From the NCBI RefSeq assembly GCF_000568255.1, contig NZ_KK037166.1, positions 4,248,374-4,312,373 on the forward strand: a stretch of 64,000 bases of DNA, read 5' to 3'. This document shows positions 7,625 through 30,102 of this stretch, one piece after another. Position numbers and translations under genes: made by a program. The notes beneath the pieces were generated by a model. The model did no database searches, was not told the origin of the DNA, and saw only the letters and a list, made by a program, of their open reading frames with translations. The stretch's first letter is position 1, and the number at the start of each line of letters is the position of its first letter. The stretch comes from Kutzneria sp. 744. GTDB taxonomy: Bacteria > Actinomycetota > Actinomycetes > Mycobacteriales > Pseudonocardiaceae.

Positions 7625-7629
7625 TTCCC

Positions 7630-10257: not shown

Positions 10258-10348
10258 GGCTGCTCCCAAGGCTGCGGGCCGGCTCCGTTCGCCGACCGAC
10301 ACCCTAAGGACGAACGGCCTCCCCCGCCCAAGGACACCCCGCACCAAA

Positions 10349-11408: not shown

Positions 11409-11444
11409 CAACAGACCCCTGTCGGAAGTACGCTGATCACCACT

Positions 11445-14927: not shown

Positions 14928-15165
14928 TGTTCCTCCCCGAAAACGAACTCCCCACAGGGCAGACGCCCGACCGCACGATCCGGTTGCATGTGTCCTGGGA
15001 CGCAACCCCGGGCGTACCCACGGCGTCACTACCCTGAACGGGACGAGGTGAAGAGGGAGCATGGAAACCGAGACGACGACCGCTCGACCATGGGGTCTGC
15101 CCTGGTGGGCGGCGATCCTGCTGCCGCTGGCGACCACCGCGGCCGGCGCGTACGTGGACCTCACG
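14800..15165. repeat. second copy of the 366-bp tandem direct duplication
   Basis: The copy of 14411-14776. It supplies the promoter and start of the complete DUF6542 gene at 15061, while the first copy supplies those of the complete LCP gene, so both full genes keep an intact upstream region. Confidence 0.9.
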
Positions 15166-15531: not shown

Positions 15532-15536
15532 CCCTG

Positions 15537-15595
15537 AACGCTGTGAAGGGGGCTTTCCCGCACCCGGAGTGCGGGAAAGCCCCCTTCACAGCGTT
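15537..15595. terminator. perfect 26-bp stem-loop between convergent genes
   Basis: A perfect 26-bp stem (15537-15562 with 15570-15595) and 7-base loop lies between the DUF6542 gene and the convergent chitinase gene. It is a strong candidate for a bidirectional terminator. The length and perfection exceed what a simple terminator needs, so it may also belong to a dispersed repeat family. Confidence 0.85.
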
Positions 15596-15604
15596 GGAAA
15601 CGCC

Positions 15605-16681
15605 TCAGCAGGTCAGGTTGCCGCCGGGCGAGACACCCAGCATCGAGGCGTACTGCTGGTACAGGTTGACCCGGTCCTGCATCTCGCCGGTGTTGTTGCC
15701 GTTGCACTCCAGGCCGCCGTTGATGGCCCGGATCGTCGCGCCGAAGCCGTTGCCGTTGACCATGGCGTTGTGCGACGTGACGCCGCCCGCTCCGGTGCCG
15801 GTGAACCAGTACCAGAGGCCGGTCTGCCAGGCCACGGACGAATCCTGCTCGACCAGGTACGGGTTGCCCAGCAGGTTCAGGCCGAGGTAGTCGCCGGCCG
15901 CCTTGTAGTTGAAGTTCCAGCTGAGCTGGAGCGGGCCGCGGCCGTAGTAGGCGTAGGTGCCGGCCGGGCAGCCGTAGGACTGGCTGGTGTCGCAGTAGTT
16001 GCCCGACTTGTCGATCTCGGTCACGTAGACCAGGTGGCCGGTCTCGTGGCTGACGTTGGCCAGGAACGCCGCCGCTTCCTGCTTCTGCACGGTGTCGCTG
16101 CCGGTGCTGGCGAAGCCGGGGAACTTGGCGATCGCCGCGGTCAGGCCGGCGTAAGTGTAGAAGCTGTTGCGGCTGGGGAACATCGAGTTGAACTGGGCCT
16201 CGCTCACCGGGAAGGCGCCCGTGCCGCCACCTCCACCGCCGCCCCCGCCGGTGCAGGAGAACGGCGACCAGAACCAGGTGCTGATGGTCGGGTCGTAGCC
16301 GGGATTGTCGTGCGTGGCCTGGTAGTACTGGCCGTTGGCCGGGTAGCGCACGATGTTGCCGGTCACGTAGTTGACGCCCGCGGCCCAGTCCGGGTAGCTG
16401 CAGGTGGTTCCGCCACCGCCGCCACCGCCCGAGCCGCCGGAACAGGCGCCCTGGTCGGCCCAGACCCCGGTGCCGCCGGTGCTCGGCGCCTCACCCTGGG
16501 TCCACCACTTGGCCTGCCAGTTGTGCGAGTTGTACGAGGCGGACATGCCGCCGGTGTAGACCTGGGTGGTGCTGTAGGCGGCGGCGCAGGTGGCCGCGTT
16601 GGCGGTCGCGGGGGCCACGACCGCGAGGGTCGCGGCCACCGCGGCGGTGGCCAGTCCGGCCAGGATTCGTCGTAACGACAA
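15605..16681 (-). CDS. secreted GH19 chitinase with two chitin-binding modules
   Basis: The 358-residue enzyme has a signal peptide (about residues 1-29, ending A-T-A-N-A), two CBM5/12-type chitin-binding modules separated by Gly-rich linkers (NWQAKWWTQGEAP near residue 50 and the Y-P-D-W-A-A-G-V module near 95), and a GH19 catalytic domain (about 155-355) with the general acid Glu in NVSHETGHLVY and the YYGRGPLQLSWNFNY motif. It cleaves chitin by inversion outside the cell. TTG at 16681 has AGGAG eight bases upstream and begins directly at the signal peptide; a GTG at 16690 lies too close to that site. DasR-type boxes lie about 100 bp upstream. Confidence 0.9.
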   Translation of the reverse strand: MSLRRILAGLATAAVAATLAVVAPATANAATCAAAYSTTQVYTGGMSASYNSHNWQAKWWTQGEAPSTGGTGVWADQGACSGGSGGGGGGGTTCSYPDWAAGVNYVTGNIVRYPANGQYYQATHDNPGYDPTISTWFWSPFSCTGGGGGGGGGTGAFPVSEAQFNSMFPSRNSFYTYAGLTAAIAKFPGFASTGSDTVQKQEAAAFLANVSHETGHLVYVTEIDKSGNYCDTSQSYGCPAGTYAYYGRGPLQLSWNFNYKAAGDYLGLNLLGNPYLVEQDSSVAWQTGLWYWFTGTGAGGVTSHNAMVNGNGFGATIRAINGGLECNGNNTGEMQDRVNLYQQYASMLGVSPGGNLTC

Positions 16682-16772
16682 GCCGATCACTCCTCGACGC
16701 GCAGGGGTGCGTAGGCCCGAGGAACTGCACAGGATCGGCGGGAGTGGCGGCTGGCACCGAACCTGCCCTCTG

Positions 16773-16784
16773 TGGGCTGGACCA
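16773..16784. promoter_or_regulatory. weaker DasR-type (dre) box
   Basis: On the minus strand the 12-mer TGGTCCAGCCCA matches the DasR core TGGTCTAGACCA at 10 of 12 positions. It lies 23 bp (two helical turns) from the better site at 16796 and about 92 bp upstream of the chitinase start, recalling the paired repeats in Streptomyces chitinase promoters. Confidence 0.5.
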
Positions 16785-16795
16785 CTCAATCCGAT

Positions 16796-16807
16796 TGGTC
16801 TATACCA
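16796..16807. promoter_or_regulatory. DasR-type (dre) box upstream of the chitinase
   Basis: TGGTCTATACCA matches the DasR operator core TGGTCTAGACCA at 11 of 12 positions. A TTGACT candidate -35 element of the chitinase promoter overlaps its upstream side on the minus strand. DasR is the GntR-family repressor of N-acetylglucosamine and chitin use, so induction by chitin breakdown products is likely. Confidence 0.7.
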
Positions 16808-16859
16808 GTCAAGAGTGTGAACGTCGGATTACGCCACCCGGCAGACCGGATTCGTCCGG

Positions 16860-18536
16860 TCAGCGGACCGTGCGGCCCCTCAGCAGCGAGGCCAGCGCAG
16901 CGACCGCCGCCATGACGGCGGCCGCGCCGAACACGGTGACCAGGCCCTGGTGGAACGGGCCGGAGATCAACTGCGGGAAGAACTCCTTGCCGGTCAACGT
17001 GGCCACGTGGTCGGGCGGCAGGGTCTTGAGCACGCCGCTGGGGCCCAGCAGGTGGGCGATCGGGTTGTCGCCGAGGAAGGCGGCGAACAGCGTGCTGACG
17101 GGTGGCAGCGAGGCGATGGACTGGGCGGTGCTCAGCGGCACGCCCTGCGCCTGCAGGCCGGCGGTGAGCGTCGTCGGCAGCGAGGACGCGAGGCCGACGA
17201 TCATCAGCGAGAAGAAGACGCCGATCGACAGCGAGGTCCCGGAGTTCTGGAACGTGGACCGCATGCCGGAGGCGACGCCGCGGTCGGCGGCCGGGACCGC
17301 GCCCATGATCGCGGACGTGTTCGGCGCGGAGAACATGCCCTGCCCGATGCCGCTGAGGAACAGCAACAGGGCGAACAGCGTGTACGAGAAGTTCACCGGC
17401 AACGCCAGTAGGCCGAGGAACGCCAGCACCACCAGGACCAGGCCGCCGGTGGCGAACAGGCGCGCGCCGAACCGGTCGGACAGGAAGCCGGCCACCGGGC
17501 CCGCCACCAGGAAGCCGAAGGTGAGCGGCAGCATGTAGATGCCGGCCCACAGTGGCGTGTCCTCGAAGTCGTAGCCGTGCAAGGGAAGCCAGATTCCCTG
17601 CAACCAGATGATCAGCATGAACTGCATGCCGCCGCGGGCCACGGCCGTGAGCAGCGCGGCGATGTTGCCGGCGGCGAAGGCGCGGACCTTGAACAGGCCC
17701 AGACGGAACATGGGATGGGGGATGCGGGTCTCGGCGATGCAGAACACCACCAGCAGGGCGATGCCCAGCGCGAGTCCACCCAGGACGGCCGGACTGGTCC
17801 AGCCGGTCGGATGTCCGCCGTAGGGCTGGATTCCGTACGTGATCGCGGCCAGCAGGGCGCCGGTGCCGGCGGTGAAGGTGAGCGTGCCGACCCAGTCGAT
17901 GCGCGCCGGCTGCGGCGCGCCGATCTCGCGCAGGCTGCGGTAGGACCAGAGCGTGCCGATCACACCGATGGGCACGCTCACCCAGAACACCGCGTGCCAG
18001 TCGATCACGGCCAGGAAGCCACCGGCCAACAGGCCGATGAACTGCCCGGCCAACGCGGTGATCTGGTTGATGCCCAGGGCGGTTCCGCGCTGGTTGGCCG
18101 GGAAGGCGTCGGTGATGATCGCCGCCGAGTTGCCGGTCAGCATCGCGCCGCCGAACGCCTGCACGACGCGCCAGCCGATCAGCCACAGCGCGCCGGGGGC
18201 TCCCATGAGCGGATCCAGTGACAGGGCAAGGGAAGCGGCGGCGAAGATGGCGAAGCCGGCGTTGTACATCTTGACCCGGCCGAACATGTCGCCGAGGCGG
18301 CCCAGCGCCACCACCAGCACCGCGGACACCAGCAGGTAGCCCAGGATCATCCACAGCAGATAACTGATGTTGCCCGGGGCCAACGGATCCAGCCCGATGC
18401 CGCGGAAGATGGCCGGCAGCGAGATGATCACGATCGAGCCGTCGACGGTGGCGATGAACACGCCGAGCGTGGTGTTGGACAGGGCGATCCACTTGTAGCG
18501 GCGGCCGATCGTGGGCTCGTCCCTGATCGCCGTCAC
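16860..18536 (-). CDS. MFS drug-efflux transporter, DHA2 (14-TM) family
   Basis: The 558-residue protein has about 14 hydrophobic helices and opens with the DHA2-type segment containing TTLGVFIATVDGSIVIISLP (helix 1, motif D-G-S-I-V). Motif A, GRLGDMFGRVKMYNAG, lies near residue 85. Such antiporters export hydrophobic drugs or secondary metabolites using the proton gradient. The GTG start at 18536 overlaps the MarR stop codon (GTGA), so the two genes form a MarR-MFS operon in which the regulator is probably the sensor of exported compounds. Confidence 0.88.
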   Translation of the reverse strand: MTAIRDEPTIGRRYKWIALSNTTLGVFIATVDGSIVIISLPAIFRGIGLDPLAPGNISYLLWMILGYLLVSAVLVVALGRLGDMFGRVKMYNAGFAIFAAASLALSLDPLMGAPGALWLIGWRVVQAFGGAMLTGNSAAIITDAFPANQRGTALGINQITALAGQFIGLLAGGFLAVIDWHAVFWVSVPIGVIGTLWSYRSLREIGAPQPARIDWVGTLTFTAGTGALLAAITYGIQPYGGHPTGWTSPAVLGGLALGIALLVVFCIAETRIPHPMFRLGLFKVRAFAAGNIAALLTAVARGGMQFMLIIWLQGIWLPLHGYDFEDTPLWAGIYMLPLTFGFLVAGPVAGFLSDRFGARLFATGGLVLVVLAFLGLLALPVNFSYTLFALLLFLSGIGQGMFSAPNTSAIMGAVPAADRGVASGMRSTFQNSGTSLSIGVFFSLMIVGLASSLPTTLTAGLQAQGVPLSTAQSIASLPPVSTLFAAFLGDNPIAHLLGPSGVLKTLPPDHVATLTGKEFFPQLISGPFHQGLVTVFGAAAVMAAVAALASLLRGRTVR

Positions 18537-18982
18537 AGCCGCTCCGCCAGCCGGTCGAGCAGCGGCAGCACGGCCAGCAGCTTGCGTCGTTCCACGGTCG
18601 TGAACTCCTCGGCGAGGGCGTGGGTGATTCGCTCGGCGCTGGCGGATCGCCGCTCCGACAACATCTTCCGGCCCGCCGTGGTGACGGAGACCAGCACCTT
18701 TCGGCCGTCGACCGCGTCGGGTTCGCGCCGCACCAGGCCACGACCCTCCATTTCGGACAGTGTGGTGCCCATGGCCTGTGGTCGGATCCGCTCCAGCTCG
18801 GCCAGCGCGGCCGGCGTGTTCGGACCGTCACGGTCCAGCCGGGCCAGCACCGACACCTCGGACAGGGTCACGTCGCCCACCTCGTGGGCCTGCCGCAGCC
18901 GGCGGGCGATCCGGCCGACGGCGACCCGCAGGTCGGCCCCGGCCCGGACCAGGTCCGGCGACAGCTCCTTCAGCTCAGCCAC
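18533..18982 (-). CDS. MarR-family transcriptional regulator
   Basis: The 149-residue protein has the winged helix-turn-helix of MarR proteins (about residues 30-100, with VTLSEVSVLARLDRDGP and the wing DAVDGRKVLVSVTTAGR). It is translationally coupled to the DHA2 transporter and probably represses both until a drug-like ligand binds. GTG at 18982 was chosen; another GTG lies 12 bases upstream (18994), and neither has a clear ribosome binding site. The stretch just upstream (about 18992-19015) includes an AT-rich ATAAACCTAG segment suitable for an operator. Confidence 0.88.
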   Translation of the reverse strand: MAELKELSPDLVRAGADLRVAVGRIARRLRQAHEVGDVTLSEVSVLARLDRDGPNTPAALAELERIRPQAMGTTLSEMEGRGLVRREPDAVDGRKVLVSVTTAGRKMLSERRSASAERITHALAEEFTTVERRKLLAVLPLLDRLAERL

Positions 18983-19264
18983 GGGTACCAACACTAGGTT
19001 TATCAGTCTGGATTGGCAAGCTTCCGGTGAAGTGACCACGCAGACACGGTGAGTAACAGCAATTAACGCACTACTCATCGAGTGAATAGCGACGCTATTC
19101 CGCGAGTGGACAGCTCCGCGGAAATTCACGTCCATGATCATCTGGACACCGAGAAGCATTCGTGTTTCGAATGTTTCAGCCCGCAGAAGCGACGGACCAC
19201 ACGAACCGATATGGTCACCGTCGGTAGCATTACTGCTCCGTTCGTGTGCATCACTGAAACGCTC

Positions 19265-19293
19265 TTGAGTCCACCCGGGGGGCGGGCTAGCTT
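19265..19293 (+). promoter_or_regulatory. candidate promoter of the biosynthetic operon
   Basis: TTGAGT (19265-19270), a 17-base spacer and TAGCTT (19288-19293) form a housekeeping-sigma type promoter facing the operon. Confidence 0.45.
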
Positions 19294-19335
19294 CCGAACA
19301 GGGCATGAGCAGGCCCGAAAACCGGGGGTCCAAAG

Positions 19336-19374
19336 ATGAAAGCATCACTGCCCGATAGGACAACACCGCACTGA
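19336..19374 (+). CDS. possible 12-residue leader peptide
   Basis: ATG at 19336 follows a GGGGGT motif at suitable distance and opens a 12-residue peptide (MKASLPDRTTPH) ending at TGA. Codons such as AGG, TCA and ACA are uncommon in GC-rich genomes, which would suit a translation-sensing leader. Its place in the presumed mRNA leader of the operon is suggestive, but so short a frame can occur by chance. Confidence 0.2.
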   Translation: MKASLPDRTTPH

Positions 19375-19419
19375 ACAATCGCGGCCGTCGCTTACTTTCC
19401 ATTCGTAGGCGCGCATCCT

Positions 19420-19431
19420 GACAACGTTGTC
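19420..19431. promoter_or_regulatory. perfect 12-bp palindrome upstream of the operon
   Basis: GACAACGTTGTC is a perfect dyad 55 bp upstream of the first start codon, inside the presumed mRNA leader. It may be an operator or part of an RNA hairpin. Confidence 0.4.
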
Positions 19432-19486
19432 GCGGCATATTCGCCCGTGTCGCGACGGATTGGGGACGCATGCGATCGGGCACCGC

Positions 19487-20731
19487 ATGAGCAGGGCTCC
19501 GGCCTGTTTCCGCTGGTACTGGTTCAGTCAGACCGCGAGCTTCGTCGGGGACCGTCTCACCGGCTTCACCGCGCCGAGCATCGCCATCCTGGTGCTGCAC
19601 GCCTCCAGCGCCGAGGTCGGCCTGCTGTCCGCGACCGGCTGGCTGGCCTACCCCGTGTTCGGCATGCTCGCCGGCGGCTTCCTGGCCCACGTGCGCAAGC
19701 GGCCGGTGCTGGTGGCCGGCGAACTCACCCGGCTGCTCGCCTTCGTCGCCGTCGGCGCATTCGCGACGATGGGTCACATCAGCGTCGCCGGGCTGGTCGT
19801 GGCGGTCGCGGTCGCCGGTGTGGCCACGGTGTTCGGCGACGTCGCCGGCCAGACCTACCTGCCGACGCTTGTCGAGCCCCGCTCGCTGTTCGCCGCCAAC
19901 GCCCGCCTCCAGAGCTCCAACAGCCTGTCCAAGCTGGTCGGGCCGGCGCTGGCCGGCCTGCTCATCGACGTGGTCGGGCCGCTGGCCGCGCTGGCCGTCA
20001 ACGCCCTGCCCTTCGCGCTCTCGGCCTTCGGCCAGTCCCGGGTGGCCACCGTGGAGCCCCTGCCCCGGCCTGAGCGGCGTGACCCGGTGCTGACCAGGAT
20101 TCGTGACGGCCTCGACCAGGTTCGCCGCATCCCCACGCTGTGGCGGATCGTGCAGGGCTCGGCCCTGCGTGCCTTCGGCATCGGCATCGTCGACACGGTG
20201 TTGCTGCTGTTCGCCTACCGTGCGCTCGGACTGTCCAGTGTGGGCGGTGAAATAAAAATGGCCGCCGGATCGCTGGCCACACTGGCCGGCGCGTTCCTGA
20301 CGCCCCGGCTGGCGGCGCGATTCGGCGTGCGGCGGTCGACCATAAAAATACCGGGCTCGAAGGCGCCACCTGGCTGGCAAAAACCGCTGGGCCTGTGGGT
20401 AACACCCGTCGCCGTGGTGGCGGCCATCCGCGTGTTGTCGTCGTTCTGGCTACCCGTGTGGGCGGTCCTCACCACGGGCGTCCGGCAGTCGCTGGCCCCA
20501 GCCGGGCACGAGAGCGCCGTACACGCCACCGTCAGCACCATCGTCTCCTCCGCCGTCCCGGCCGGATCACTGGCCGGCGGGCTGGTGGCCGGCGCCGCCA
20601 CGGGCTGGCTCGGCGTCACCGACGGGCTCGCGCTCGTGCTGGCCGCCGGCGGCCTGCTCGCCGCCGCCGGCGTGCTGTTCGTCCGCCACCCCGACCGAAA
20701 CCTCGCCCCACCCGAACTTGTCGCTGCCTGA
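19487..20731 (+). CDS. MFS exporter, first gene of the biosynthetic operon
   Basis: The 414-residue protein has about 12 hydrophobic segments and resembles the enterobactin-exporter/macrolide-efflux branch of the MFS (RWYWFSQTASFVGDRLTG near the start; GPALAGLLIDVVGPLAALAVNA near residue 160). It is presumably the exporter, and perhaps self-protection, for the product made by the downstream genes, the first of which begins 11 bp after its stop. A short central patch uses very rare ATA and AAA codons (around 20248-20350), unlike the rest. ATG at 19487 was preferred because it begins at the conserved N terminus. Confidence 0.85.
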   Translation: MSRAPACFRWYWFSQTASFVGDRLTGFTAPSIAILVLHASSAEVGLLSATGWLAYPVFGMLAGGFLAHVRKRPVLVAGELTRLLAFVAVGAFATMGHISVAGLVVAVAVAGVATVFGDVAGQTYLPTLVEPRSLFAANARLQSSNSLSKLVGPALAGLLIDVVGPLAALAVNALPFALSAFGQSRVATVEPLPRPERRDPVLTRIRDGLDQVRRIPTLWRIVQGSALRAFGIGIVDTVLLLFAYRALGLSSVGGEIKMAAGSLATLAGAFLTPRLAARFGVRRSTIKIPGSKAPPGWQKPLGLWVTPVAVVAAIRVLSSFWLPVWAVLTTGVRQSLAPAGHESAVHATVSTIVSSAVPAGSLAGGLVAGAATGWLGVTDGLALVLAAGGLLAAAGVLFVRHPDRNLAPPELVAA

Positions 20732-20742
20732 TTGGGGAAGAC

Positions 20743-21918
20743 ATGCACCCGCTCACCACACGAAGGATCAACGCCAAGGAATTCGCCGACATCAAACACA
20801 CCGTGGCGATGCGGTCGCGGGCCCGGCGCAGCCTGCTGGCCGACCCCGGCTACGCCGCGCCGCTGCCGCAGGAGGTCAGCCTCCAGCTGACCTACCGCTG
20901 CAACCTGCGGTGCAGCCACTGCTACCAGTGGAACGAGCAGGGCTTCTTCCGGGACTTCAGCCCCGAACGGCAGAAGACCGAGCTGGACGTGGAGATCATC
21001 TCCAGCGTGCTGCGCACCACCGCGCCCACCCGCTCAAAGCTGTTCCTGTGGGGCGGGGAACCGTTGATGCACACCAAGTTCGGCCAGGTCGCCGAGCTGC
21101 TGGAGCGCTATCCCCGCACGGTCAACATGTGCACCAACGGCCTGCTGTTCAAGCGCAAGCTGGACGACCTGCTGCGCATCGGGGAGAACCTGAACCTGCT
21201 GATCAGCCTGGACGGGCTGGGCGAGGACCATGAGGCGCTGCGCGGCAAGGGCACGTTCAAGCGCACCATGGAGAACATCCGGATGATGCTGGACCTCAAG
21301 CGGTCCGGGCAGTTCGACGGCGAGATCTCGTTGTCCTGCATGGTCTCGCACGTGACCGTGGGCAAGATGTACGAGTTCATGGAGTGGGCCGAGGAGCTCG
21401 GCGTCAACACCGTGTACTTCCAGTTCCCCTGGTACATCAGCCCCGAGGTCGCGGCGCAGATGGACGAGGTGTACGAGAAGTCGTTCTCCTGGCTCAAGCC
21501 CGACACCGGCACCAAGCAGCCGACCTGGCACTCCTACACCTACCAGCTGCCGTCCGAGCAGCTGCCCGTGCTGCGGGAGTCCATGGCGCGCCTGGCTTCC
21601 CGGTCGTGGCGGGTCCGCGTGCGGTACCAGCCGCAGCTGGAGGCCGACGAGGTCGAGGACTTCATCCTCGGCACCTCCCGTCCCGCGCAGCGCCGGTCCA
21701 AGTGCCTGGCCGTGTCCAACCGGATGGAGGTGCACGCCGACGGCAACGTCAGCTCCTGCAAGTTCTTCCCCGAGTTCGTGGTGGGCAACCTCTATGACAC
21801 CGAGGTCACCGAGCTGTGGCAGAGCACGGCGTTCCGCGAGGTGCGGTCGATCCTGTCGGCCAACGGCATGATGCCGGTCTGCTCGAAGTGCATTCTCCTC
21901 TACCTGAACGGGGTGTGA
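20743..21918 (+). CDS. radical SAM enzyme with twitch-type auxiliary cluster
   Basis: The 391-residue protein has the radical SAM motif CNLRCSHC (Cys53, Cys57, Cys60), the GGEP motif (residues 104-107) and a C-terminal domain with just four further candidate cysteines: Cys321, Cys339, Cys380 and Cys383. This is the C-x17-C ... C-x2-C layout of a single auxiliary [4Fe-4S] site (twitch), not the seven cysteines of a full SPASM domain. The best known twitch enzyme is BtrN, which dehydrogenates an aminocyclitol in butirosin biosynthesis. The reaction here is unknown: a dehydrogenation, epimerisation or peptide modification is possible. GGGGA precedes ATG 20743. The carrier-protein gene follows after three bases. 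Confidence 0.9.
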   Translation: MHPLTTRRINAKEFADIKHTVAMRSRARRSLLADPGYAAPLPQEVSLQLTYRCNLRCSHCYQWNEQGFFRDFSPERQKTELDVEIISSVLRTTAPTRSKLFLWGGEPLMHTKFGQVAELLERYPRTVNMCTNGLLFKRKLDDLLRIGENLNLLISLDGLGEDHEALRGKGTFKRTMENIRMMLDLKRSGQFDGEISLSCMVSHVTVGKMYEFMEWAEELGVNTVYFQFPWYISPEVAAQMDEVYEKSFSWLKPDTGTKQPTWHSYTYQLPSEQLPVLRESMARLASRSWRVRVRYQPQLEADEVEDFILGTSRPAQRRSKCLAVSNRMEVHADGNVSSCKFFPEFVVGNLYDTEVTELWQSTAFREVRSILSANGMMPVCSKCILLYLNGV

Positions 21919-21921
21919 GTC

Positions 21922-22176
21922 ATGGACGACGTCGAGAACAAGGTGCGCGCGGTGCTGGTCGGCGTGTTGTCGAACGGGCTCGCGGTGGACGAGGTGGCGC
22001 TGGACGCCGACCTGGTCGACGAGTACGGCCTGGACTCGCTGCAGATGATCTCGTTCCTGCTCGGCATCGAGGACTCCTTCGACCTGGAGCTGGACTACGA
22101 GAACCTGGAGCTGGACCATCTCCGGTCGGTGTCGCAGTTCGCCTCGTACGTGCGGCAGCTGGCACCGGCCGCGTGA
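21922..22176 (+). CDS. stand-alone acyl/peptidyl carrier protein
   Basis: This 84-residue acidic protein is a discrete carrier protein. YGLDSLQMISF places the phosphopantetheine attachment serine at Ser39, in the usual D-S-L motif at the start of helix 2. It would be activated by a phosphopantetheinyl transferase encoded elsewhere. Its gene overlaps the following ATP-grasp gene (GTGA), which strongly suggests that the ATP-grasp enzyme loads it or works on what it carries. Confidence 0.92.
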   Translation: MDDVENKVRAVLVGVLSNGLAVDEVALDADLVDEYGLDSLQMISFLLGIEDSFDLELDYENLELDHLRSVSQFASYVRQLAPAA

Positions 22177-23354
22177 CAGCCGTCGTCCTGGGGACCTTCG
22201 ACGCGGAACGGTGGTGGCGGCCGGCCGACCTGGCCACGCTGCCGGCGGCCGCTGCCGCCGACGGGGCCGCGGAGTCGATGGACGAGCTGCTGGCGGGGTT
22301 CTGTGCCCCGGGCGATCTGCTGGTCACCCGGCGGCCGGTCGCGCCGGCGGTGGTGTCGGGGCTGGCCGCTCGCGGGATCACCTTCCGTCAGCATGCGTGT
22401 CCAGTTCCCGCTGCCGGCACGATGGAAAGCGCTCTCCTCGGATCGGCCCTGCTGCGGTCGCATGCCGAGTTCCGCCCCTACGCAGTGCTACCGGACACCG
22501 TCCGTCTCGATTGGACGGACGGCCTGCCGCCCTCGCCGGTGGTGGCCGAGGTGAACTCCAAGTCCTGGTCCAACGATCTCGCCTTGGAGCTGGGGCTGCC
22601 CGGCACCGGCACCGTGGTTCGTTCCGTGGAGGAGCTGACCGCGGCCGTGGACGGGACCGTGGTGGTCAAGGACCCGTACGGGGTGTCCGGGCGGGCGATG
22701 TTGGAGGTCGCCACGCCCGGGGTGTTGCGGGCGGTGACCAGGACCCTGGCCCGGCAGGATCGCCGGATCGAGCTGCTGGTGCAGCCGAAGTTCGAGAAGC
22801 GGCTGGACTTCTCCGGTCATCTGGAGGTGTTCCGGGACGGCGGCTGGGAGTTCCTCGGCGTGCAGGCCATGAACAACCGGGGCTTCCGGCACATCGGCTC
22901 CGCCCCGCCGTCCGTCGAGCTGCTGGACCTGGTGGAGCGCAGCGGGTACGTGGAGGTGCTCGGCTCGGTGGCCAAGGCGGTGTCGGCGGCCGGCTACTGG
23001 GGTCCGGTCGGCGTGGACTCGATGGTGCTGGCCGACGGGACCGTCGTGCCGGTGCTGGAGATCAACGCCCGACGGTCGCTGGGCCTGCTGTCCCTGCTGT
23101 TGGCCCGGCGCATGCCGGGCTTCCGGTTGTGGCAGCTGGAACTTCGGGTCCCCGAAGGGCTCGGCGTCGAGGACGTGGTGGCCGCGCTGCCGTGGCCCGA
23201 GGTGATCGTGCTCAGCGGCAGCGGGCTGGCCGCCCCGGGCGGTCGGGTGTATCTGGGGCTGGTGACCGACGATGTCCGGCGGCTTCAGGACGCGGTGGTG
23301 GCCGCGCTGACGGCCGCCGGCCTGGTGCCGAGGGGAGTCGCCGATGCCGCTTGA
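22173..23354 (+). CDS. ATP-grasp ligase, likely carrier-protein loading enzyme
   Basis: The 393-residue protein has an ATP-grasp C-terminal region: VVVKDPYGVSGRAML with the nucleotide-binding Lys166, and LEINARRSLG with the metal-binding Glu296 and Asn298. The N-terminal 120 residues are a family-specific preATP-grasp domain. ATP-grasp enzymes join a carboxylate to an amine or thiol through an acyl phosphate. Immediate coupling to a carrier-protein gene suggests the role of butirosin BtrJ, which loads an amino acid onto the BtrI carrier (analogy, not shown). GTG 22173 overlaps the carrier stop codon; its own end overlaps the next gene by 11 bp. Confidence 0.85.
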   Translation: MTAVVLGTFDAERWWRPADLATLPAAAAADGAAESMDELLAGFCAPGDLLVTRRPVAPAVVSGLAARGITFRQHACPVPAAGTMESALLGSALLRSHAEFRPYAVLPDTVRLDWTDGLPPSPVVAEVNSKSWSNDLALELGLPGTGTVVRSVEELTAAVDGTVVVKDPYGVSGRAMLEVATPGVLRAVTRTLARQDRRIELLVQPKFEKRLDFSGHLEVFRDGGWEFLGVQAMNNRGFRHIGSAPPSVELLDLVERSGYVEVLGSVAKAVSAAGYWGPVGVDSMVLADGTVVPVLEINARRSLGLLSLLLARRMPGFRLWQLELRVPEGLGVEDVVAALPWPEVIVLSGSGLAAPGGRVYLGLVTDDVRRLQDAVVAALTAAGLVPRGVADAA

Positions 23355-24306
23355 CATCGGCCTGATCGGCGCGACCGGGATCGCGGAGAAGGCCATCCTG
23401 CGGCCGGCTTCGGCCTTCGACGACGTCTCCGTGCGGGCAGTGGCGGCTTCCGATCCGGTGCGGGCCAAAGAGTTCGCCACGCGGCACGGCATCGACCGTG
23501 TGCACGACACGTATGCCGAACTGGTGGCGGATCCGGCGGTCAACACCGTCTATGTGTCGCTGCACAACTCCGCCCACCGGGAGTGGGTGGTCGCCGCGGC
23601 CGAGGCCGGCAAGCACGTGATCGTCGAGAAGCCGCTGTGTCTGTCGGCCTTGGAAGCGGCCGAGATCGCCGCGGCGGCGGTGGGCGTGCAGGTGATCGAG
23701 GCAGTGCCGACGATCGGACATCCGTGGCAGGCCGCGGTCCGGGAGATGATTCTGGGCAACCGTTTCGGCCCGCTCACCCGGATCCGCACCGAGATCCGCT
23801 TCGGCGTGCCCGCGCCGGGAAGTTATCGGGAGCGTCCTGAACTCGGCGGCGGCATCTTCCTGGACAGCGCCAGCTACTGGCTTCAGGCCGTGCAGGCGAC
23901 GGTCGGCCTTGACGGCGCGGTCGGCTCCGCGCAGTCCGCGTTCGACGGGCCCAACGGCGTCGACCGCTCCTTCGACGCCGCGCTGACCTGGCCCGGCTTG
24001 ACGGCCGAACTGCACTGCTCGGTCGGAGACAAGCACATCGCCAACCACGAGTTCACCTTCGCCGAGGCCACGGTCAAGATCCGCAACTTCCTGCTGCCCG
24101 CCGCCGGCCCCCTGCCGCTCAACCTGGCGATCCGGCGGGTGGGCGGGCCGACCACCGTGGAAGCGTTCCCACCGGTTTCGTACTACGACCTCCAGCTGGC
24201 CCGCGTGCGTGACATCGTGGCCTCCGGCGGTGGCGAACTCGCCGCCGCCGTGGACCGCATCACGCTGATGGCCGCCCTCCATCGGCGGGCCAGGGAGGCA
24301 TCGTGA
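23344..24306 (+). CDS. Gfo/Idh/MocA-family oxidoreductase
   Basis: The 320-residue protein has an N-terminal Rossmann fold with GLIGATGIAEKAI (residues 6-18) and the diagnostic EKP motif (residues 95-97, HVIVEKPLCL). A substrate domain with GGGIFLDSASYWLQA follows, where the family usually has G-G-G-x-L-x-D-x-G-x-H/Y. Relatives oxidise or reduce sugars, inositols and amino sugars with NAD(P). Within this operon it points to a sugar- or cyclitol-derived building block. It overlaps both neighbours. Confidence 0.88.
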   Translation: MPLDIGLIGATGIAEKAILRPASAFDDVSVRAVAASDPVRAKEFATRHGIDRVHDTYAELVADPAVNTVYVSLHNSAHREWVVAAAEAGKHVIVEKPLCLSALEAAEIAAAAVGVQVIEAVPTIGHPWQAAVREMILGNRFGPLTRIRTEIRFGVPAPGSYRERPELGGGIFLDSASYWLQAVQATVGLDGAVGSAQSAFDGPNGVDRSFDAALTWPGLTAELHCSVGDKHIANHEFTFAEATVKIRNFLLPAAGPLPLNLAIRRVGGPTTVEAFPPVSYYDLQLARVRDIVASGGGELAAAVDRITLMAALHRRAREAS

Positions 24307-25277
24307 CCAGCATCAATAGCTACCAGCGGCACATCGACGACGTACAGCTCGCCGGTGTGCTGATGGCGGCCGGCATCGCGCCGTCCAGGCTGGCCGAGCG
24401 GTCGGAACTGAGCGAGGCCAGCTACAACACCGCCTACCGGCTCCGCCTCACCGACGGCTCCGGGCTGGTGCTGAAGATCGCGCCCGACCCGGCCATGCCC
24501 GGTCTGTCCTACGAGCGTGACCTCATGCGGACCGAGACGCTGTTCTACCGCACCGCTTCCGGTGTGGTACCCGTGCCCGAGGTCGTGCACGCCGACTTCT
24601 CCCGCGATCTCCTCGACAGCGACTTCCTGGTCATGACCGAGCTCCCCGGCGCCAACTGGTACGGCCTGCGTTCCTCTTTGGCCGACACCGACCGCGACCG
24701 CCTGCGTGGTGACCTCGGCCGACTGGTGGCCGACCTGCATCGAATCACCGGCGATGAATTCGGCTATCCGCAAGGGGAAACGTCGTCCAGCTGGCGCACC
24801 GCCTTCCTCGGCATGCTCGACGCCCTGCTGGCCGACGCTGCCCACTGGGAGACGCAGCTCCCGCGTTCCCTGTCCCAGATCCGCCAGCTGATCGGCGCCA
24901 ACGCGTACGTACTGGACGAGGTCACCACGCCGGTCCTCGTGCACTTCGACCTCTGGCCCGGCAACATCCTGTTGCACGACAACCAGATCACCGGCATCGT
25001 CGACGGCGAGCGCGCGTTCTGGGGCGATCCCCTGGCCGAGATGGTGTCCCTCGCCCTGTTCGCCAGCATCAAGGACGATGCCGCCTTCCTCGACGGCTAC
25101 GGCCCGCTCGACTTCACCGACGCCGCCCGCCGACGGCTGGCCCTCTACCGCACCTATCTGTACCTGATCATGCTCATCGAGGGCGCCCCGCGCGGCTACT
25201 CGGGGCCGGACCGGGACGCCCTCGTGAAGATCACCTCCCTGCACCTGCGGAAGGCACTGACGGAGTTGCAGTCATGA
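24303..25277 (+). CDS. APH-fold small-molecule kinase
   Basis: The 324-residue protein has the aminoglycoside-phosphotransferase fold: Lys58 in VLKIA, the catalytic loop HFDLWPGN (His214, Asp216, Asn221) and the metal-binding Asp234 in GIVDGERAFWGDP. Such kinases phosphorylate hydroxyls of sugars, homoserine-like amino acids, choline or antibiotics. Here it may be a biosynthetic step or self-protection by phosphorylating the product. GTGA overlap with the previous gene and ATGA overlap with the next show strict coupling. Confidence 0.88.
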   Translation: MTSINSYQRHIDDVQLAGVLMAAGIAPSRLAERSELSEASYNTAYRLRLTDGSGLVLKIAPDPAMPGLSYERDLMRTETLFYRTASGVVPVPEVVHADFSRDLLDSDFLVMTELPGANWYGLRSSLADTDRDRLRGDLGRLVADLHRITGDEFGYPQGETSSSWRTAFLGMLDALLADAAHWETQLPRSLSQIRQLIGANAYVLDEVTTPVLVHFDLWPGNILLHDNQITGIVDGERAFWGDPLAEMVSLALFASIKDDAAFLDGYGPLDFTDAARRRLALYRTYLYLIMLIEGAPRGYSGPDRDALVKITSLHLRKALTELQS

Positions 25278-26287
25278 TCGAGATCCTCACCTCGGGTGTC
25301 GCCCTCGGCGTGCACGTGCCGGGGCTGCTGCTGGCCGACCGGTTGCGCGAGAAGGGAGTTCCCGTCGGCGTCAGCGTGTTGGAGCGGTTGCTGCCGGCGC
25401 AGAAGCTGGCCACCACCGCCACCATGAAGTTCGCCTTCCACCGGGACTTCCGGGTCGCCCTGGCCGGGCAGAAGATGGCCGGCTCGCCGGCGGACTCGGT
25501 GGATCCGGCGGCCGTCGAGGCGCTGTTCGCCGACTGGCGGGCGCGGGGCGTGGACCGCGTGGTGGTGTTCTCCGGCTTCTGGCTGCCCATCCTGGCCGGC
25601 TACGACTGTGCGATCGACGTCTGCCACGTTGATTCGGTCGCTTCACCGTCATTCACCAAGACAGTCACGGATCTTGACGTTCGCCCGGTGTGGCTGGCCG
25701 ACGCCGAGGCCGGCGCCATCCCGTGCAGCATCCGCGTCAGCCATGAACCTCCTGTGCCCTGGACGGATCGCTCGCCGCGTGTGTTCCTGCACGGCGGCGG
25801 CTGGGGCATGGGCACCTACCGGGACCGCATCGGCGAACTGCTGGAACACGGGTTGCAGCTGGACGTCATCGCCTACGAGGGCCGGGACGTGACGGCCGAG
25901 GGCGTGCGGTACTTCATGGTCGATCCGGAGTGGCATCCCTGGCTGGACAACGGATATCCGCCGTTCGGCGAGGTCGGCGCCGGCTTCACACGCGGCGTCG
26001 GCCACCACGGGTCGTTCGATCTGACCCGGAAAGCCCTGGCCACGGTGAGCAAGCCCGGCGGCGGCACCCTGTTGGACTCCCTGTGGTCGGCGACGCCGGC
26101 CGTGCTGCTGGAGCCGTTCGGCGCGCACGAGCAGCGCAACGCCGACCTGTGGTGCTCGCTGGGGTACGGCATTCCCTTCGGCACCTGGCGTGCGTCCGGC
26201 TTCGACCCGGAGTTGTTGCGGCCCTTGCACGAGGCGCTGCTGAAGGCCGATGTTCCCGACTACGCCGAGGAGTTGGCGCGCCGATGA
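25274..26287 (+). CDS. GT-B fold glycosyltransferase-like protein
   Basis: The 337-residue protein reads as two Rossmann-like halves. The C-terminal half contains GGGTLLDSLWSATPAVLLEP followed by E-Q-R-N-A, which resembles the donor-binding signature of UGT/MurG-type glycosyltransferases (G-G-x-x-T ... P ... [DE]-Q-x-x-N-A). The N-terminal half starts MIEILTSGVALGVHVPGLLLA, a typical GT-B start with a glycine-rich turn. It may transfer a sugar to the product or to a carrier-bound intermediate. It is smaller than most UGTs (about 400 residues), so the assignment is tentative. Confidence 0.6.
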   Translation: MIEILTSGVALGVHVPGLLLADRLREKGVPVGVSVLERLLPAQKLATTATMKFAFHRDFRVALAGQKMAGSPADSVDPAAVEALFADWRARGVDRVVVFSGFWLPILAGYDCAIDVCHVDSVASPSFTKTVTDLDVRPVWLADAEAGAIPCSIRVSHEPPVPWTDRSPRVFLHGGGWGMGTYRDRIGELLEHGLQLDVIAYEGRDVTAEGVRYFMVDPEWHPWLDNGYPPFGEVGAGFTRGVGHHGSFDLTRKALATVSKPGGGTLLDSLWSATPAVLLEPFGAHEQRNADLWCSLGYGIPFGTWRASGFDPELLRPLHEALLKADVPDYAEELARR

Positions 26288-27489
26288 CCAGCGTGGAGAC
26301 GACCTGGCCGCTGTCCGTCTGGCAGCGGCAGTGCATGGGCCTCGAACGCGCGCACCCCGGCTCGTTCACCGACCCGCTCTACACCATCAGCGCCGTCGTC
26401 GAGCTGCGCGGGCCGCTGGATCTCGTCGTGCTGCAACGCGCCGTCGACGAGCTGATCCGGCGGCACGAGATCCTGCGCACCCGGTTCGTCGAGGACGCCC
26501 AGGTCGTGTCTCCACGAGCTTCGTCCGAGGTCGTGCTCCTCGACGAGGTCGACGTGTACTTCCCGGTCTACGCCGACAGCCCGACGCCGCTCGCGGTTAC
26601 CGTGTCCCGCCACGGCACCGACGAGCACAGGCTCTCCTTTCACCTGCAACACCTTGCTTGCGACCCGGTCACGCTGTGGTCGGCGCTGGCCGAACTGGGT
26701 GCCTTGTACCATGCCGAACTCGGCGGTCCGGCCGTGCCGCCGCCTAGCGCGCAGTTCGGCGAGTACGTCACGTTCGAAGGCCAACAGCAGCGGGCTGACG
26801 AGGTCGCCGCCCGCGCTTGGTGGGAAAGTTGCCTGGGCGGCAAGGCTTTCGCCCGCGTTCCCGCCGACTCCACCGCACTGTCGTTCGAGTACCGGGACGA
26901 TCTGCTGTCCGCCGAGGAGTTCACGGCGCTGGCGAAGTTCGGCCGTGCGCACCGTGGCACCGTGCTGACCACGCTGGCCGCCGCCCTCGCCTGCGCCATG
27001 GGTCCGCACGTCAGCGGCGGCGATCTGTTGTTCTCCACCATCTTCCGCAAGCGCGACCGTCCACAGTGGCAGCGGATGCTGGGTCCGTGCTTTGCAGTCA
27101 CCCTTTTCCCGGTCCCCGCCCCACCGGACCGGCTCACCGCCGACTACTCCCGCGCCGTGCGTGACATCCTCGTGCGGTGCCAGCGATACAACCGGTTCGA
27201 CCTGCTGGAGCTGCACGCCCTCATCCCGGACTTCACCCCCGCACTCAACCACTTCCTCGAGTTCATGCCGCCCGACCGGCCTGATGGCATCGCCTTCGGG
27301 CCGGTGACCGGCCGGGTCGTGACCGCCGCCGGGCCACCGACGGACACCCCGTTCGGCCTCGACCTGCGCACCCGGGACACCCCGGCCGGCGCCGTCGTCG
27401 GACACATCAGCGGTTGCGGCGGCGGCTGGCGTGAGGCGACCGTCCGTCAGCTGTGGCGGGATGTCGCCGCGCAACTCAGGGATGGATGA
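26284..27489 (+). CDS. free-standing NRPS condensation-domain protein with altered active site
   Basis: The 401-residue protein begins PLSVWQRQCMGLE, continues with LDLVVLQRAVDELIRRHEIL (core motif C2) and ends after the expected size for a lone condensation domain. The catalytic motif HHxxxDG reads Q-H-L-A-C-D-P (residues 122-128): the second His and the Asp are kept, while the first His and the Gly are lost. It could still form an amide or ester between a carrier-bound acyl group and a free amine or alcohol, as other stand-alone C domains do. It is the last gene of the operon and overlaps the convergent GNAT gene by 14 bp. Confidence 0.82.
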   Translation: MTSVETTWPLSVWQRQCMGLERAHPGSFTDPLYTISAVVELRGPLDLVVLQRAVDELIRRHEILRTRFVEDAQVVSPRASSEVVLLDEVDVYFPVYADSPTPLAVTVSRHGTDEHRLSFHLQHLACDPVTLWSALAELGALYHAELGGPAVPPPSAQFGEYVTFEGQQQRADEVAARAWWESCLGGKAFARVPADSTALSFEYRDDLLSAEEFTALAKFGRAHRGTVLTTLAAALACAMGPHVSGGDLLFSTIFRKRDRPQWQRMLGPCFAVTLFPVPAPPDRLTADYSRAVRDILVRCQRYNRFDLLELHALIPDFTPALNHFLEFMPPDRPDGIAFGPVTGRVVTAAGPPTDTPFGLDLRTRDTPAGAVVGHISGCGGGWREATVRQLWRDVAAQLRDG

Positions 27490-28189
27490 ACGGCGTGGTC
27501 GTGGCCAGTTGCACGAAGCCGAGCCGTTGCAGGATCGGGCTGCTGTCGTCGGAGGCGTCGGCCTGGAAGTAGCGGAATCCCGCATCCTTGGCCGCTCGTG
27601 TTCCGTGGGCCACCAGCGCCCTGAACAGGCCGCGTCCCCTCCACTGCGCCAGCGTTCCGCAGCCCCACAGGCCGGCGAAGTCCGTTCCTGGCGTGAACTC
27701 CACGCGGGCGCAGGACACCGGGCCGCCTTCGGCCACCGCCACGAAGCCCCGCTGACTCTCCTTGTCCTCCAGCAGCTTCCGACCGACCGCCGAGTAGTCG
27801 CCGCCGAACACCTCGTTGTGCACCTTGACGAACATCTCGACCGTCTCTTCGTCGGTCACGGGAAGGAGCGTCGTGCCCGCCGGCAACGCCGCTTCCGTCG
27901 GCAGCTCGTCGATCACCGCCACCAGCAGCGCTTCCGTCGGCTCCGGCGCGAATCCCGCCGCCAGCAACCGATCCGCGAGATCCGCCGGCTTGTCGTAGGA
28001 GTAGTGCTTCCACTCCCACTCGCGGCCGAGCTCCGCGAACCGGGCCACATACCCGGCGATCGCCCCGTCCGCCGTCGCCTCGTCCAGGTCGCTGGCCACC
28101 ACCCCCGCCCAGTCGTCCTCGATCAGCACCTCGCCGTCGGCCCGGCGAATCTGACGCTCGAACTCGGCCAACACATAGTCGCGATCCAC
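27476..28189 (-). CDS. GNAT-family N-acetyltransferase
   Basis: The 237-residue protein has an N-terminal extension and a C-terminal GNAT domain (about residues 100-235), with the acetyl-CoA motif Q-W-R-G-R-G-L-F (Q/R-x-x-G-x-G/A) near residue 185 and a final R-L-G-F strand. The substrate is unknown. It is convergent with the condensation-domain gene. It is transcribed away from the operon and is probably not part of it, although acetylation as self-resistance cannot be ruled out. Confidence 0.85.
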   Translation of the reverse strand: MDRDYVLAEFERQIRRADGEVLIEDDWAGVVASDLDEATADGAIAGYVARFAELGREWEWKHYSYDKPADLADRLLAAGFAPEPTEALLVAVIDELPTEAALPAGTTLLPVTDEETVEMFVKVHNEVFGGDYSAVGRKLLEDKESQRGFVAVAEGGPVSCARVEFTPGTDFAGLWGCGTLAQWRGRGLFRALVAHGTRAAKDAGFRYFQADASDDSSPILQRLGFVQLATTTPFIHP

Positions 28190-28765: not shown

Positions 28766-30085
28766 TTAGTCCTTGGGTCGTTCGTCGATGATCCGCTTGA
28801 GCTTGCCCACCGAGCGTTCCAGGGTCTCCGGATCCACCACCTCGACGGCCACGGTCACGCCGACGCCGTCCTTGACGCGGCCGACGATCTCGCCGGCGGC
28901 CGCGATTCGGTCCTGCGCCGGGGCGTCGGGCCGGGCCTCGACGACCACGGTGAGGTGGTCCATGCGGTCACGGCGGCTGAGGCGGAGCTGGAAGTGCGGG
29001 GACAGGCCGGCGGTGCCGAGCACGATCTCCTCGATCTGCGTGGGGAACACGTTCACACCGCGCAGGATGATCATGTCGTCGCTACGGCCGGTCACCTTGT
29101 CCATGCGGCGGAAGGCCGGCCGGGCGGTGCCGGGGCGCAGGGCGGTGAGGTCGCGGGTGCGGTAGCGGATGATCGGCAGGGCCTGCTTGGTCAGCGAGGT
29201 GAACAGCAGCTCGCCGGTCTCGCCATCCGGCAACACGGTGCCGTACACGGGATCGATCACCTCGGGCAGGAAGTGGTCCTCCCAGATGTGCAGCCCGTCC
29301 TTGGTCTCCACGCACTCCTGCGCGACGCCGGGCCCCATCACCTCGGACAACCCGTAGATGTCGACGGCGTCCAACCCGGCCCGCGTCTCGATCTCGGCCC
29401 GCATCTTCTCGGTCCACGGCTCGGCGCCGAAGATGCCGACCCGCAGCGAGCTGGTCTCGGGGTGGATGCCCTGCCGCTCGAACTCGTCGAGCAGGGTCAG
29501 CATGTACGTCGGCGTAACCATGATGATCTCGGGCCGGAAGTCGGTGATGATCTGCACCTGCCGCGCGGTCATGCCGCCGGAGGCGGGAATGACCGTGCAG
29601 CCCAGTTTCTCGGCGCCGTAGTGCGCACCGAGGCCGCCGGTGAACAGACCGTAGCCGTACGCCACGTGCACCTTGTGCCCGGGCCGGCCACCGGCGGCGA
29701 AGATGGAGCGCGCCATCACGGTGGCCCAGGTGTCGATGTCCTCCGCGGTGTAGCCGACGACGGTCGGTTTTCCGGTGGTGCCGCTGGAGGCGTGGATGCG
29801 ACGAACCTGTTCCTGCGGCACGGCGAACATGCCGAACGGGTAGTTGTCGCGCAGGTCGTGCTTGGTCGTGACGGGAAAACCGGCCAGGTCGGTCAGTTCC
29901 CGACAGTCCTGCGGCCGCACGCCGGCCTCGTCGAACTTCTTGCGGTAGAAGGGGACGTTCTCGTAAGCGTGCCTGAGCGTCCACTGTAGACGGGTGAGCT
30001 GGAGGGCCCGCAGCTCGTCGGCGGAGAGTCGCTCGACGGCCGTCAGCTCGTGTGCGGTCGGCGCCGCGCCCCATCTTGCCGTCAT
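28766..30085 (-). CDS. paaK: phenylacetate-CoA ligase
   Basis: The 439-residue acyl-adenylate enzyme has the PaaK hallmarks: an N-terminal FYRKKFDEAG segment, the ATP-binding motif SSGTTGKPTVVGYT (about residues 89-102), YGLSEVMGPGV (near 245), and the C-terminal lysine motif SVGKLKRII. PaaK converts phenylacetate, ATP and CoA to phenylacetyl-CoA, the first step of the aerobic phenylacetate pathway. No other paa genes are beside it. ATG at 30085 has GGAG six bases upstream; a GTG at 30097 is less likely. A PaaR-like operator lies just upstream. Confidence 0.9.
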   Translation of the reverse strand: MTARWGAAPTAHELTAVERLSADELRALQLTRLQWTLRHAYENVPFYRKKFDEAGVRPQDCRELTDLAGFPVTTKHDLRDNYPFGMFAVPQEQVRRIHASSGTTGKPTVVGYTAEDIDTWATVMARSIFAAGGRPGHKVHVAYGYGLFTGGLGAHYGAEKLGCTVIPASGGMTARQVQIITDFRPEIIMVTPTYMLTLLDEFERQGIHPETSSLRVGIFGAEPWTEKMRAEIETRAGLDAVDIYGLSEVMGPGVAQECVETKDGLHIWEDHFLPEVIDPVYGTVLPDGETGELLFTSLTKQALPIIRYRTRDLTALRPGTARPAFRRMDKVTGRSDDMIILRGVNVFPTQIEEIVLGTAGLSPHFQLRLSRRDRMDHLTVVVEARPDAPAQDRIAAAGEIVGRVKDGVGVTVAVEVVDPETLERSVGKLKRIIDERPKD

Positions 30086-30102
30086 CGTCGACTCCACTGT
30101 TT

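Follow-up and report, generated by a model that had tools for sequence, protein, structure and literature searches.

The 64,000-nucleotide stretch of Kutzneria sp. 744 analysed here (contig NZ_KK037166.1, positions 4,248,374 to 4,312,373 of the forward strand, hereafter the window) raises the question of what could be made by an operon of eight genes, at positions 19487-27489, that encodes a carrier protein and a stand-alone condensation domain (C domain). An earlier reading of this DNA (the original prediction) had pointed out that none of the eight genes encodes an adenylation domain, a polyketide synthase (PKS) or a precursor peptide, and this is borne out by the open reading frames (ORFs) and by Pfam and NCBIfam. 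With a little more confidence than doubt, we regard the operon as the logic of butirosin side-chain synthesis rebuilt around a radical S-adenosylmethionine enzyme (rSAM) carrying a twitch domain, with a C domain that would hand the product over to a sugar-containing acceptor. In this scheme, the ATP-grasp ligase would activate an amino acid as an acyl phosphate and load it onto the carrier protein, and the rSAM would then remodel, and most likely oxidise, the carrier-bound aminoacyl group. The GT-B protein, the Gfo-type ketoreductase and the APH-type kinase would build or tailor the sugar-containing acceptor. The C-domain protein would then move the carrier-bound aminoacyl group to an amine or hydroxyl of this acceptor, and the product would leave the cell through the major facilitator superfamily (MFS) protein. 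We infer each chemical step, as well as the amino acid and the acceptor, from the gene content, homologies, folds, active-site residues and conservation that are observed.

The eight ORFs form a single run on the + strand without internal stops, and their seven junctions are, in order, gaps of 11 and 3 bp followed by overlaps of 4, 11, 4, 4 and 4 bp, in agreement with the position and tight packing that had been claimed. Six of the eight proteins pass the cut-off of a Pfam family (MFS_1, Radical_SAM together with SPASM, PP-binding, GFO_IDH_MocA, APH and Condensation) and the other two, the ATP-grasp and GT-B proteins, were recognised by their predicted folds, which supports all eight functional assignments of the original prediction, that of a stand-alone C-domain protein included (Table 1).

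Table 1. Genes of the operon, with their positions in the window and the evidence for each assignment
Product	Position	Strand	Length	Place in the family	Evidence
MFS exporter	19487..20731	+	414 aa	satellite	Pfam MFS_1 78.1 bits
Radical SAM enzyme, C-terminal twitch domain	20743..21918	+	391 aa	core	Pfam Radical_SAM + SPASM
Stand-alone carrier protein	21922..22176	+	84 aa	core	PF00550 35.6 bits
ATP-grasp ligase	22173..23354	+	393 aa, GTG start	core	AlphaFold2 model + Foldseek, profile search
Gfo/Idh/MocA oxidoreductase	23344..24306	+	320 aa	satellite	PF01408 71.3 bits
APH-fold kinase	24303..25277	+	324 aa, GTG start	satellite	PF01636 99.5 bits
GT-B-fold protein	25274..26287	+	337 aa	core	AlphaFold2 model + Foldseek
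Stand-alone condensation domain	26284..27489	+	401 aa	proposed hand-off enzyme	PF00668 81.2 bits, cut-off 30.6

Relatives of the operon were sought by applying the rSAM alignment and two short peptide patterns to a single genome of each species, a pair of patterns whose shortness makes the scan favour close relatives. From the 105 loci found (labelled L, the protein families among them being labelled f), 80 were kept, namely 39 from actinobacteria, 39 from Paenibacillus, one from Thermoflavimicrobium and one from Lysobacter, with one locus stemming from a metagenome assembly. The 39 actinobacterial loci represent 37 genomes, two loci each being held by Kutzneria sp. CA-103260 and Umezawaea endophytica, and some loci from the two retrieval rounds are one place taken twice. 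Motif counts cover the window, the 39 actinobacterial loci and two plasmid loci, restricted to stop-free sequences that reach 80% or more of the length of the window protein. Presence counts by family model lean towards presence because the models were partly built from the same loci; each model gives one label per open frame, and the carrier protein of L116, hidden in this way, was seen by tblastn. As the gene caller failed in the high-GC loci L078, L092, L096 and L098, absence counts rest on tblastn and six-frame searches.

Conservation across these 80 loci indicates that the deeper unit is a four-gene core composed of the rSAM, the carrier protein, the ATP-grasp ligase and the GT-B protein. 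By family model, these are present in 80, 79, 71 and 74 loci, respectively, and all four in 70, and tblastn with the window proteins finds them in 80, 80, 70 and 74 loci, with 20 for the MFS protein. Among the 39 actinobacterial loci, the family models recognise the MFS protein in 24, the Gfo protein in 26 and the APH kinase in 34. The original prediction had set conservation of the block in other actinomycetes beforehand as one of its tests, and all eight gene kinds are indeed found, each set on one strand, in 20 of the 39 actinobacterial loci. Fifteen of these full sets keep the order of the window (five of them with a divergent C domain, f38), and in the remaining five (L064-L067 and L088) the C domain has moved ahead of the kinase. 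Two Streptomyces plasmids also carry all eight kinds, with this divergent C domain. Within the order, ATP-grasp protein matches occur in 27 of 397 genomes and the four core genes together in 12, that is, in the window's own genome and 11 others. The flanks of the ten loci that were read differ between genera, with the exception of L071, which is filed as Streptomyces and has Kribbella-type flanks. The four-gene-core family also occurs in Paenibacillus and Thermoflavimicrobium and, in part, in Lysobacter, a common Paenibacillus layout being carrier protein, ATP-grasp ligase, GT-B protein, rSAM, an ATP-binding cassette (ABC) exporter and the orphan gene f10. The eight-gene pathway that had been predicted therefore stands as a conserved block but not as a pathway apart, since it is one actinobacterial layout of this wider family.

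That the ATP-grasp ligase loads the carrier protein appears quite probable. Its AlphaFold2 model (mean predicted local distance difference test score, pLDDT, 93.3), for which Pfam offers no fitting family, retrieves ATP-grasp peptide ligases with Foldseek (best 8ynd, E 8e-20), and the profile of its family retrieves 8ynd (6e-20), PGM1 (4e-13) and BesA (5e-7) from the PDB. Residues K130, K166, D282, E296, N298 and R300 are invariant in 28 sequences. The carrier protein bears its attachment Ser in a GLDSL motif, kept in 42 of 42 aligned sequences, and shows a weak likeness to DltC in NCBIfam. Because the ATP-grasp gene adjoins the carrier protein gene, the product of the ligase is likely a thioester and not a free peptide. 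Two published accounts place BtrI, BtrJ and BtrK in butirosin side-chain synthesis (PMC11405602, PMC4431377). The window ATP-grasp ligase alone aligns with BtrJ at 25% identity over 157 aa (E 6e-12), and the profile of its family, A3, scores 211 bits against BtrJ, a value helped by the BtrJ-like Paenibacillus rows that A3 includes. During butirosin synthesis, BtrJ loads the carrier protein and BtrH transfers the acyl group, BtrK is a pyridoxal phosphate decarboxylase, BtrG is the cyclotransferase responsible for deprotection, and BtrN acts on a cyclitol by aminocyclitol dehydrogenation. When the Btr proteins of P. chitinolyticus were compared with the 80 loci (tblastn, E 1e-4), BtrJ matched 66, BtrN 14 (weakly, and to judge from the profile comparison within the twitch domain), BtrH 7, BtrO 6 (luciferase-like monooxygenases), BtrI 2 (weakly) and BtrD 1 (a PIG-L protein). 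A butirosin-type cluster, whose genes presumably bear the names that we assigned to them, was located in P. chitinolyticus beside its own cassette copy (L128), and one of its proteins matches PF14399 (BtrH_N). The cispentacin pathway was dropped as a candidate, its NCBIfam model AmcB matching the carrier protein only, with 37.9 bits against a cut-off of 80.

The seven matches of BtrK fall in loci of another type (L051-L061), two of which deserve mention. BtrJ also matches a fusion of a C domain and an ATP-grasp ligase in the window's own genome (L051, near 9,602,000), where a second carrier-protein pathway (7711-18074) comprises this BtrJ-like fusion of 881 aa, followed by a BtrK-like decarboxylase, a carrier protein and two KASIII-like proteins. 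Likewise, a Streptomyces decoyicus plasmid (L061, 7929-10973) encodes a BtrJ-like ATP-grasp ligase, a BtrK-like decarboxylase and a carrier protein, preceded by a KASIII-like protein (6951-7883) and adjoined by a nonribosomal peptide synthetase (NRPS).

Action of the rSAM on the carrier-bound unit seems moderately probable in view of the company this gene keeps. The enzyme displays a CX3CX2C motif (positions 53, 57 and 60) and the auxiliary-cluster cysteines of a twitch domain (C321, C339, C380 and C383), and all seven cysteines are invariant in an alignment of 14 sequences (A1) with a mean column identity of 78%. Its best NCBIfam match is the twitch model NF033640, which all 14 members of A1 match and which scores 103 bits on the window enzyme, below the cut-off of 170. 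None of the NCBIfam models exceeds its threshold with the rSAM, the ATP-grasp ligase or the GT-B protein of the window. The mean sequence distance of the rSAM is 0.23 vs 0.41-0.52 for five operon partners. Among the five pairs that include the rSAM, its distance matrix correlates best with that of the carrier protein (r 0.94, from the 27 of 42 sets holding all six genes, every correlation being inflated by relatedness).

The rSAM and the carrier protein also stay together where the cluster is split. The ATP-grasp and GT-B genes lie on a different contig from the family rSAM in four of the four P. elgii-type genomes searched. The ATP-grasp halves (L169 and L170, from two genomes) contain a carrier protein, the ATP-grasp ligase, the GT-B protein, f10 and an ABC ATPase 59-60% identical to that of L139, and lack a permease. 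The rSAM halves (L109, L113, L123, L129 and L134) contain two ABC permeases, a second rSAM, a Gfo protein, another carrier protein, the family rSAM and KASIII-like genes, and no ABC ATPase of the type seen in the ATP-grasp halves was found in these five. The two halves complement each other, with the ATPase in one and the permeases in the other. A second copy in Kutzneria sp. CA-103260 (L063, 1824-11432; rSAM 89% and carrier protein 79% identical) keeps only the rSAM, the carrier protein and the C domain out of the eight, and adjoins cyclase, polyprenyl synthetase and terpene synthase genes; judging from these neighbours, its product is possibly an aminoacylated terpenoid. L063 also has a BtrO-like monooxygenase.

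These associations bear on a rather unlikely alternative, according to which the rSAM acts on a sugar or, in the manner of BtrN, on a cyclitol, while the carrier branch runs separately and the Gfo protein reduces the resulting ketones. It would account for the homology of the twitch domain to BtrN, including its four cysteines (E 3e-6 for the C-terminus in a PDB profile search; hhalign probability 92%, E 7e-7), and for the occurrence of sugar ketoreductases near the Gfo protein in the PDB. However, the profile alignment with BtrN covers the twitch part alone and the window enzyme has 391 aa against 250, the rSAM distances track the carrier protein best among the rSAM pairs, and the rSAM and carrier protein occur together in P. 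elgii-type loci, where the GT-B and ATP-grasp genes are elsewhere, and in L063, which has no GT-B, Gfo or APH gene of the family. The togetherness of the two genes in the split clusters and in L063, along with the r of 0.94, therefore favours, without proving it, a carrier-bound substrate of the rSAM.

The sugar part of our scheme was proposed because of the GT-B fold, the sugar reductases near the Gfo protein and the hygromycin-B kinase matched by the APH protein. The GT-B protein, for which neither Pfam nor NCBIfam has a fitting family, is placed in the GT-B-fold class by its AlphaFold2 model (mean pLDDT 93.7), which retrieves natural-product GT-B glycosyltransferases with Foldseek (best E 3e-10, template-modelling score of about 0.56 on the query), and by profile it matches a diacylglycerol glucosyltransferase (4e-5). 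The Gfo protein has 1,5-anhydrofructose reductase (5e-21) and the sugar 3-ketoreductase 3rbv (2e-19), presumably KijD10, among its solved relatives. The Lys of its EKP motif and the Tyr of its DxASYW motif are invariant (29 of 29), and this Tyr, which we take to be the catalytic acid, aligns with the Tyr of 3rbv at a position occupied by Phe in 3rc7. The best solved match of the kinase is hygromycin-B 4-O-kinase (E 1e-6), with HFD....N and DxE motifs that are invariant in 37 of 37 sequences; its gene lies on the opposite strand in L090, L092 and L094-L097. This kinase may serve self-protection of the producer instead of tailoring. Furthermore, a PIG-L deacetylase-like gene diverges from the carrier protein gene in the Paenibacillus loci L121, L130 and L133, with methyltransferase-like genes downstream (checked by Pfam in L121 and L133, by family model in L130), a gene content that may point to an N-acetyl amino sugar as part of these versions.

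We give little credence to the possibility that the GT-B protein adds its sugar to the amino acid while this is bound to the carrier, the C domain then releasing the resulting glyco-amino-acid to acceptors that vary between sugar, terpene and lipid. The Paenibacillus layout given above, with the GT-B gene among carrier protein, ATP-grasp, rSAM, ABC exporter and f10 genes, and the position of the L063 copy beside terpene-type genes would suit it. On the other hand, the family GT-B gene is beside the rSAM and carrier protein neither in L063 nor locally in the P. elgii-type loci, and the 50 Foldseek matches listed include small-molecule glycosyltransferases and MurG, none of them described as acting on a carrier protein.

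Returning to the transfer onto a sugar-containing acceptor, the C domain would take the step that BtrH takes in butirosin. BtrH itself is not among the eight genes of the window, and a C domain is found instead in 36 of the 39 actinobacterial loci by family model. In the HHxxxDG site, the second His and the Asp are kept in 25 of 25 sequences and the final Gly is replaced by Pro in all 25; the first His is a Gln in the window and in one other sequence, so that the window motif reads QHxxxDP. Counting candidate hand-off proteins within 10 kb of the rSAM gene in the fetched stretches, some of which are probably unrelated neighbours, yields a C domain in 37 of the 80 loci, f10 or a BtrH-like protein in 31 and a KASIII-like protein in 11, with two loci counted twice and three having none. 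The apparent hand-off enzyme thus differs by group, being a C domain in actinobacteria and a BtrH-like, f10 or KASIII-like protein elsewhere. Among these families, f30, found in 7 of the 80 loci and each time in Paenibacillus, is homologous to BtrH and f20 is KASIII-like, supported at 98.9% by hhalign, while f10 is unproved as a BtrH-type enzyme (hhalign probability 0.5%, E 0.11).

Some loci gave thought to a different destination of the aminoacyl group, in which the cassette decorates a cell-envelope polymer, by analogy with the D-alanylation of teichoic acid, instead of making a secreted metabolite; this seems very improbable to us. In Paenibacillus agilis (L104), the rSAM gene is followed 2.4 kb downstream by a DltB-like membrane acyltransferase gene (13577-14788; 188 bits against a cut-off of 375), and L103 and L110 have relatives of this gene at that position. 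Along with the weak DltC likeness of the carrier protein and the LPG-synthase-like membrane protein in 4 of 80 loci, this would fit an envelope role. But the DltB-like gene was seen in only three loci and may be a mere neighbour, export is suggested by the MFS matches of 24 of the 39 actinobacterial loci and by the ABC permeases that 37 of the 80 loci have, and the patchy distribution and plasmid copies would better fit a specialised metabolite. Finally, a chance packing of eight unrelated neighbours is practically excluded, because the block is kept in other genera. Of the 39 actinobacterial loci, 20 have all eight genes, with the order unchanged in 15 and one gene moved in five, and the flanks vary among the genera of the ten loci read.

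Several observations nevertheless weigh against the scheme that we prefer. With respect to the butirosin logic, BtrK, BtrG and BtrV match none of the 80 loci (tblastn, E 1e-4), which rules out the butirosin route to the acyl unit, and the match between the window carrier protein and BtrI falls short of significance (E 0.10). The highest matrix correlation is that between the ATP-grasp and GT-B proteins (0.955), above the rSAM and carrier protein pair, and the two Nonomuraea genomes (L098 and L099) show no cassette-type ATP-grasp ligase, the matches being a weak one and one in a BtrK-type locus. Concerning the sugar, the solved structure nearest to the Gfo protein is 1ydw, a plant oxidoreductase of unnamed function. 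The APH kinase occurs in none of the 41 non-actinobacterial loci and the Gfo protein in only part of them, so that neither belongs to the core. As L063 is devoid of the GT-B, Gfo and APH proteins of the family, with a candidate glycosyltransferase-like frame 7 kb off, a sugar acceptor may not be general. As for the hand-off, no recognised enzyme is present in L080, L098 and L099, the KASIII-like gene of L079 lies on the opposite strand at a distance of 4 kb, and the sole non-actinobacterial C domain (L115) sits inside a multidomain frame of 1303 aa with two C-domain matches.

More tentatively, and with somewhat less confidence than doubt, these loci may represent a mobile cassette that Actinobacteria and Firmicutes share and of which Lysobacter has a partial copy. 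In this cassette, the rSAM would act on an ATP-grasp-loaded amino acid and interchangeable hand-off enzymes (C domain, BtrH-like, KASIII-like) would re-target one building block to sugar, terpenoid or other acceptors. No cassette member with a described product was found, nor any description of the cassette family in the open-licence literature, a scope that leaves MIBiG and subscription papers outside; within it, the pathway is undescribed, as had been predicted. We rate as new here the core and the exchanged transfer enzyme of what is otherwise a carrier-protein pathway like that of butirosin. If our reading is true, dozens of named strains would hold a metabolite family that could escape searches based on NRPS, PKS or precursor peptides, and a strongly conserved rSAM would gain a candidate substrate in a carrier-bound amino acid. 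Butirosin side-chain logic would furthermore reach actinobacteria with a different transfer enzyme, which bears on the making of acylated aminoglycoside-like molecules.

The genome holding the window is a single contig of 11.65 Mb, and the window is syntenic with Kutzneria sp. CA-103260, with 79-87% DNA identity across long matches. Upstream of the operon, and divergent from it, lies a pair formed by a MarR-type regulator and a DHA2-type MFS protein (16860-18982). Downstream, a GNAT-like gene (27476-28189) converges on the operon. Beyond it are a LacI-type regulator and, encoded on the opposite strand, the nearest acyl-activating enzyme identified, a PaaK-type ligase (28766-30097). A scan of 18980-19600 found no promoter or terminator, a result of little weight in an actinomycete. 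Between 20249 and 20400 the MFS gene, which belongs to a 68% GC stretch, contains three A5 runs (20254, 20344 and 20379), around which the protein is sharply unlike that of the Kutzneria relative L062, and this region reflects either a base-calling problem or a genuine local divergence. A10 and T13 homopolymers also occur at 9192-9228, within a predicted sigma-factor-like gene (8720-9910, - strand).

The GT-B protein shares its fold and a GGGT-containing C-terminal motif with GT1/GT28-type enzymes (SnogD, CalG3, the elaiophylin glycosyltransferase and MurG), at 11-18% identity among the 50 matches listed, and unlike them it reaches no Pfam glycosyltransferase model. The ATP-grasp ligase resembles the peptide ligases 8ynd, PGM1 and BesA in fold and profile, with 17-19% identity in Foldseek alignments, but its gene, unlike theirs, adjoins that of a carrier protein. 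The Gfo family keeps both the Lys of EKP and the Tyr at the 3rbv position of the Gfo/Idh/MocA sugar 3-ketoreductases. The C domain aligns over nearly its full length with NRPS condensation domains (Txo2 and 8z0q), whose second His and Asp it retains, whereas the family protein stands alone, with no adenylation or thiolation domain, and bears HHxxxDP in place of HHxxxDG. With BtrN, the rSAM shares a four-cysteine auxiliary domain, arranged in the window enzyme as C-X17-C followed by C-X2-C, but it is 391 aa long compared with 250 aa for BtrN, and the family enzyme is accompanied by a carrier protein.

The closest parallel is the side-chain pathway of butirosin, with which the operon has in common a BtrJ-homologous ATP-grasp ligase, a small carrier protein and a twitch rSAM, and part of the family also relatives of BtrO (6 of 80 loci) and BtrH (7 of 80 loci). 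Membership of the butirosin pathway proper was rejected, as BtrK, BtrH and BtrG are not found in the window, and a likeness in the way of working is retained. The butirosin-like character claimed by the original prediction accordingly survives for the ATP-grasp ligase, homologous to BtrJ, and for the twitch domain, homologous to that of BtrN. The match of the carrier protein with BtrI is not significant, and BtrK, BtrG and BtrV match none of the 80 loci. As judged from the sequences, the likeness is thus one of homology of the loading enzyme and of part of the rSAM rather than one of membership: a C domain replaces BtrH in actinobacteria, the rSAM is larger and different, a GT-B gene belongs to the core, and APH and Gfo proteins are added as satellites.

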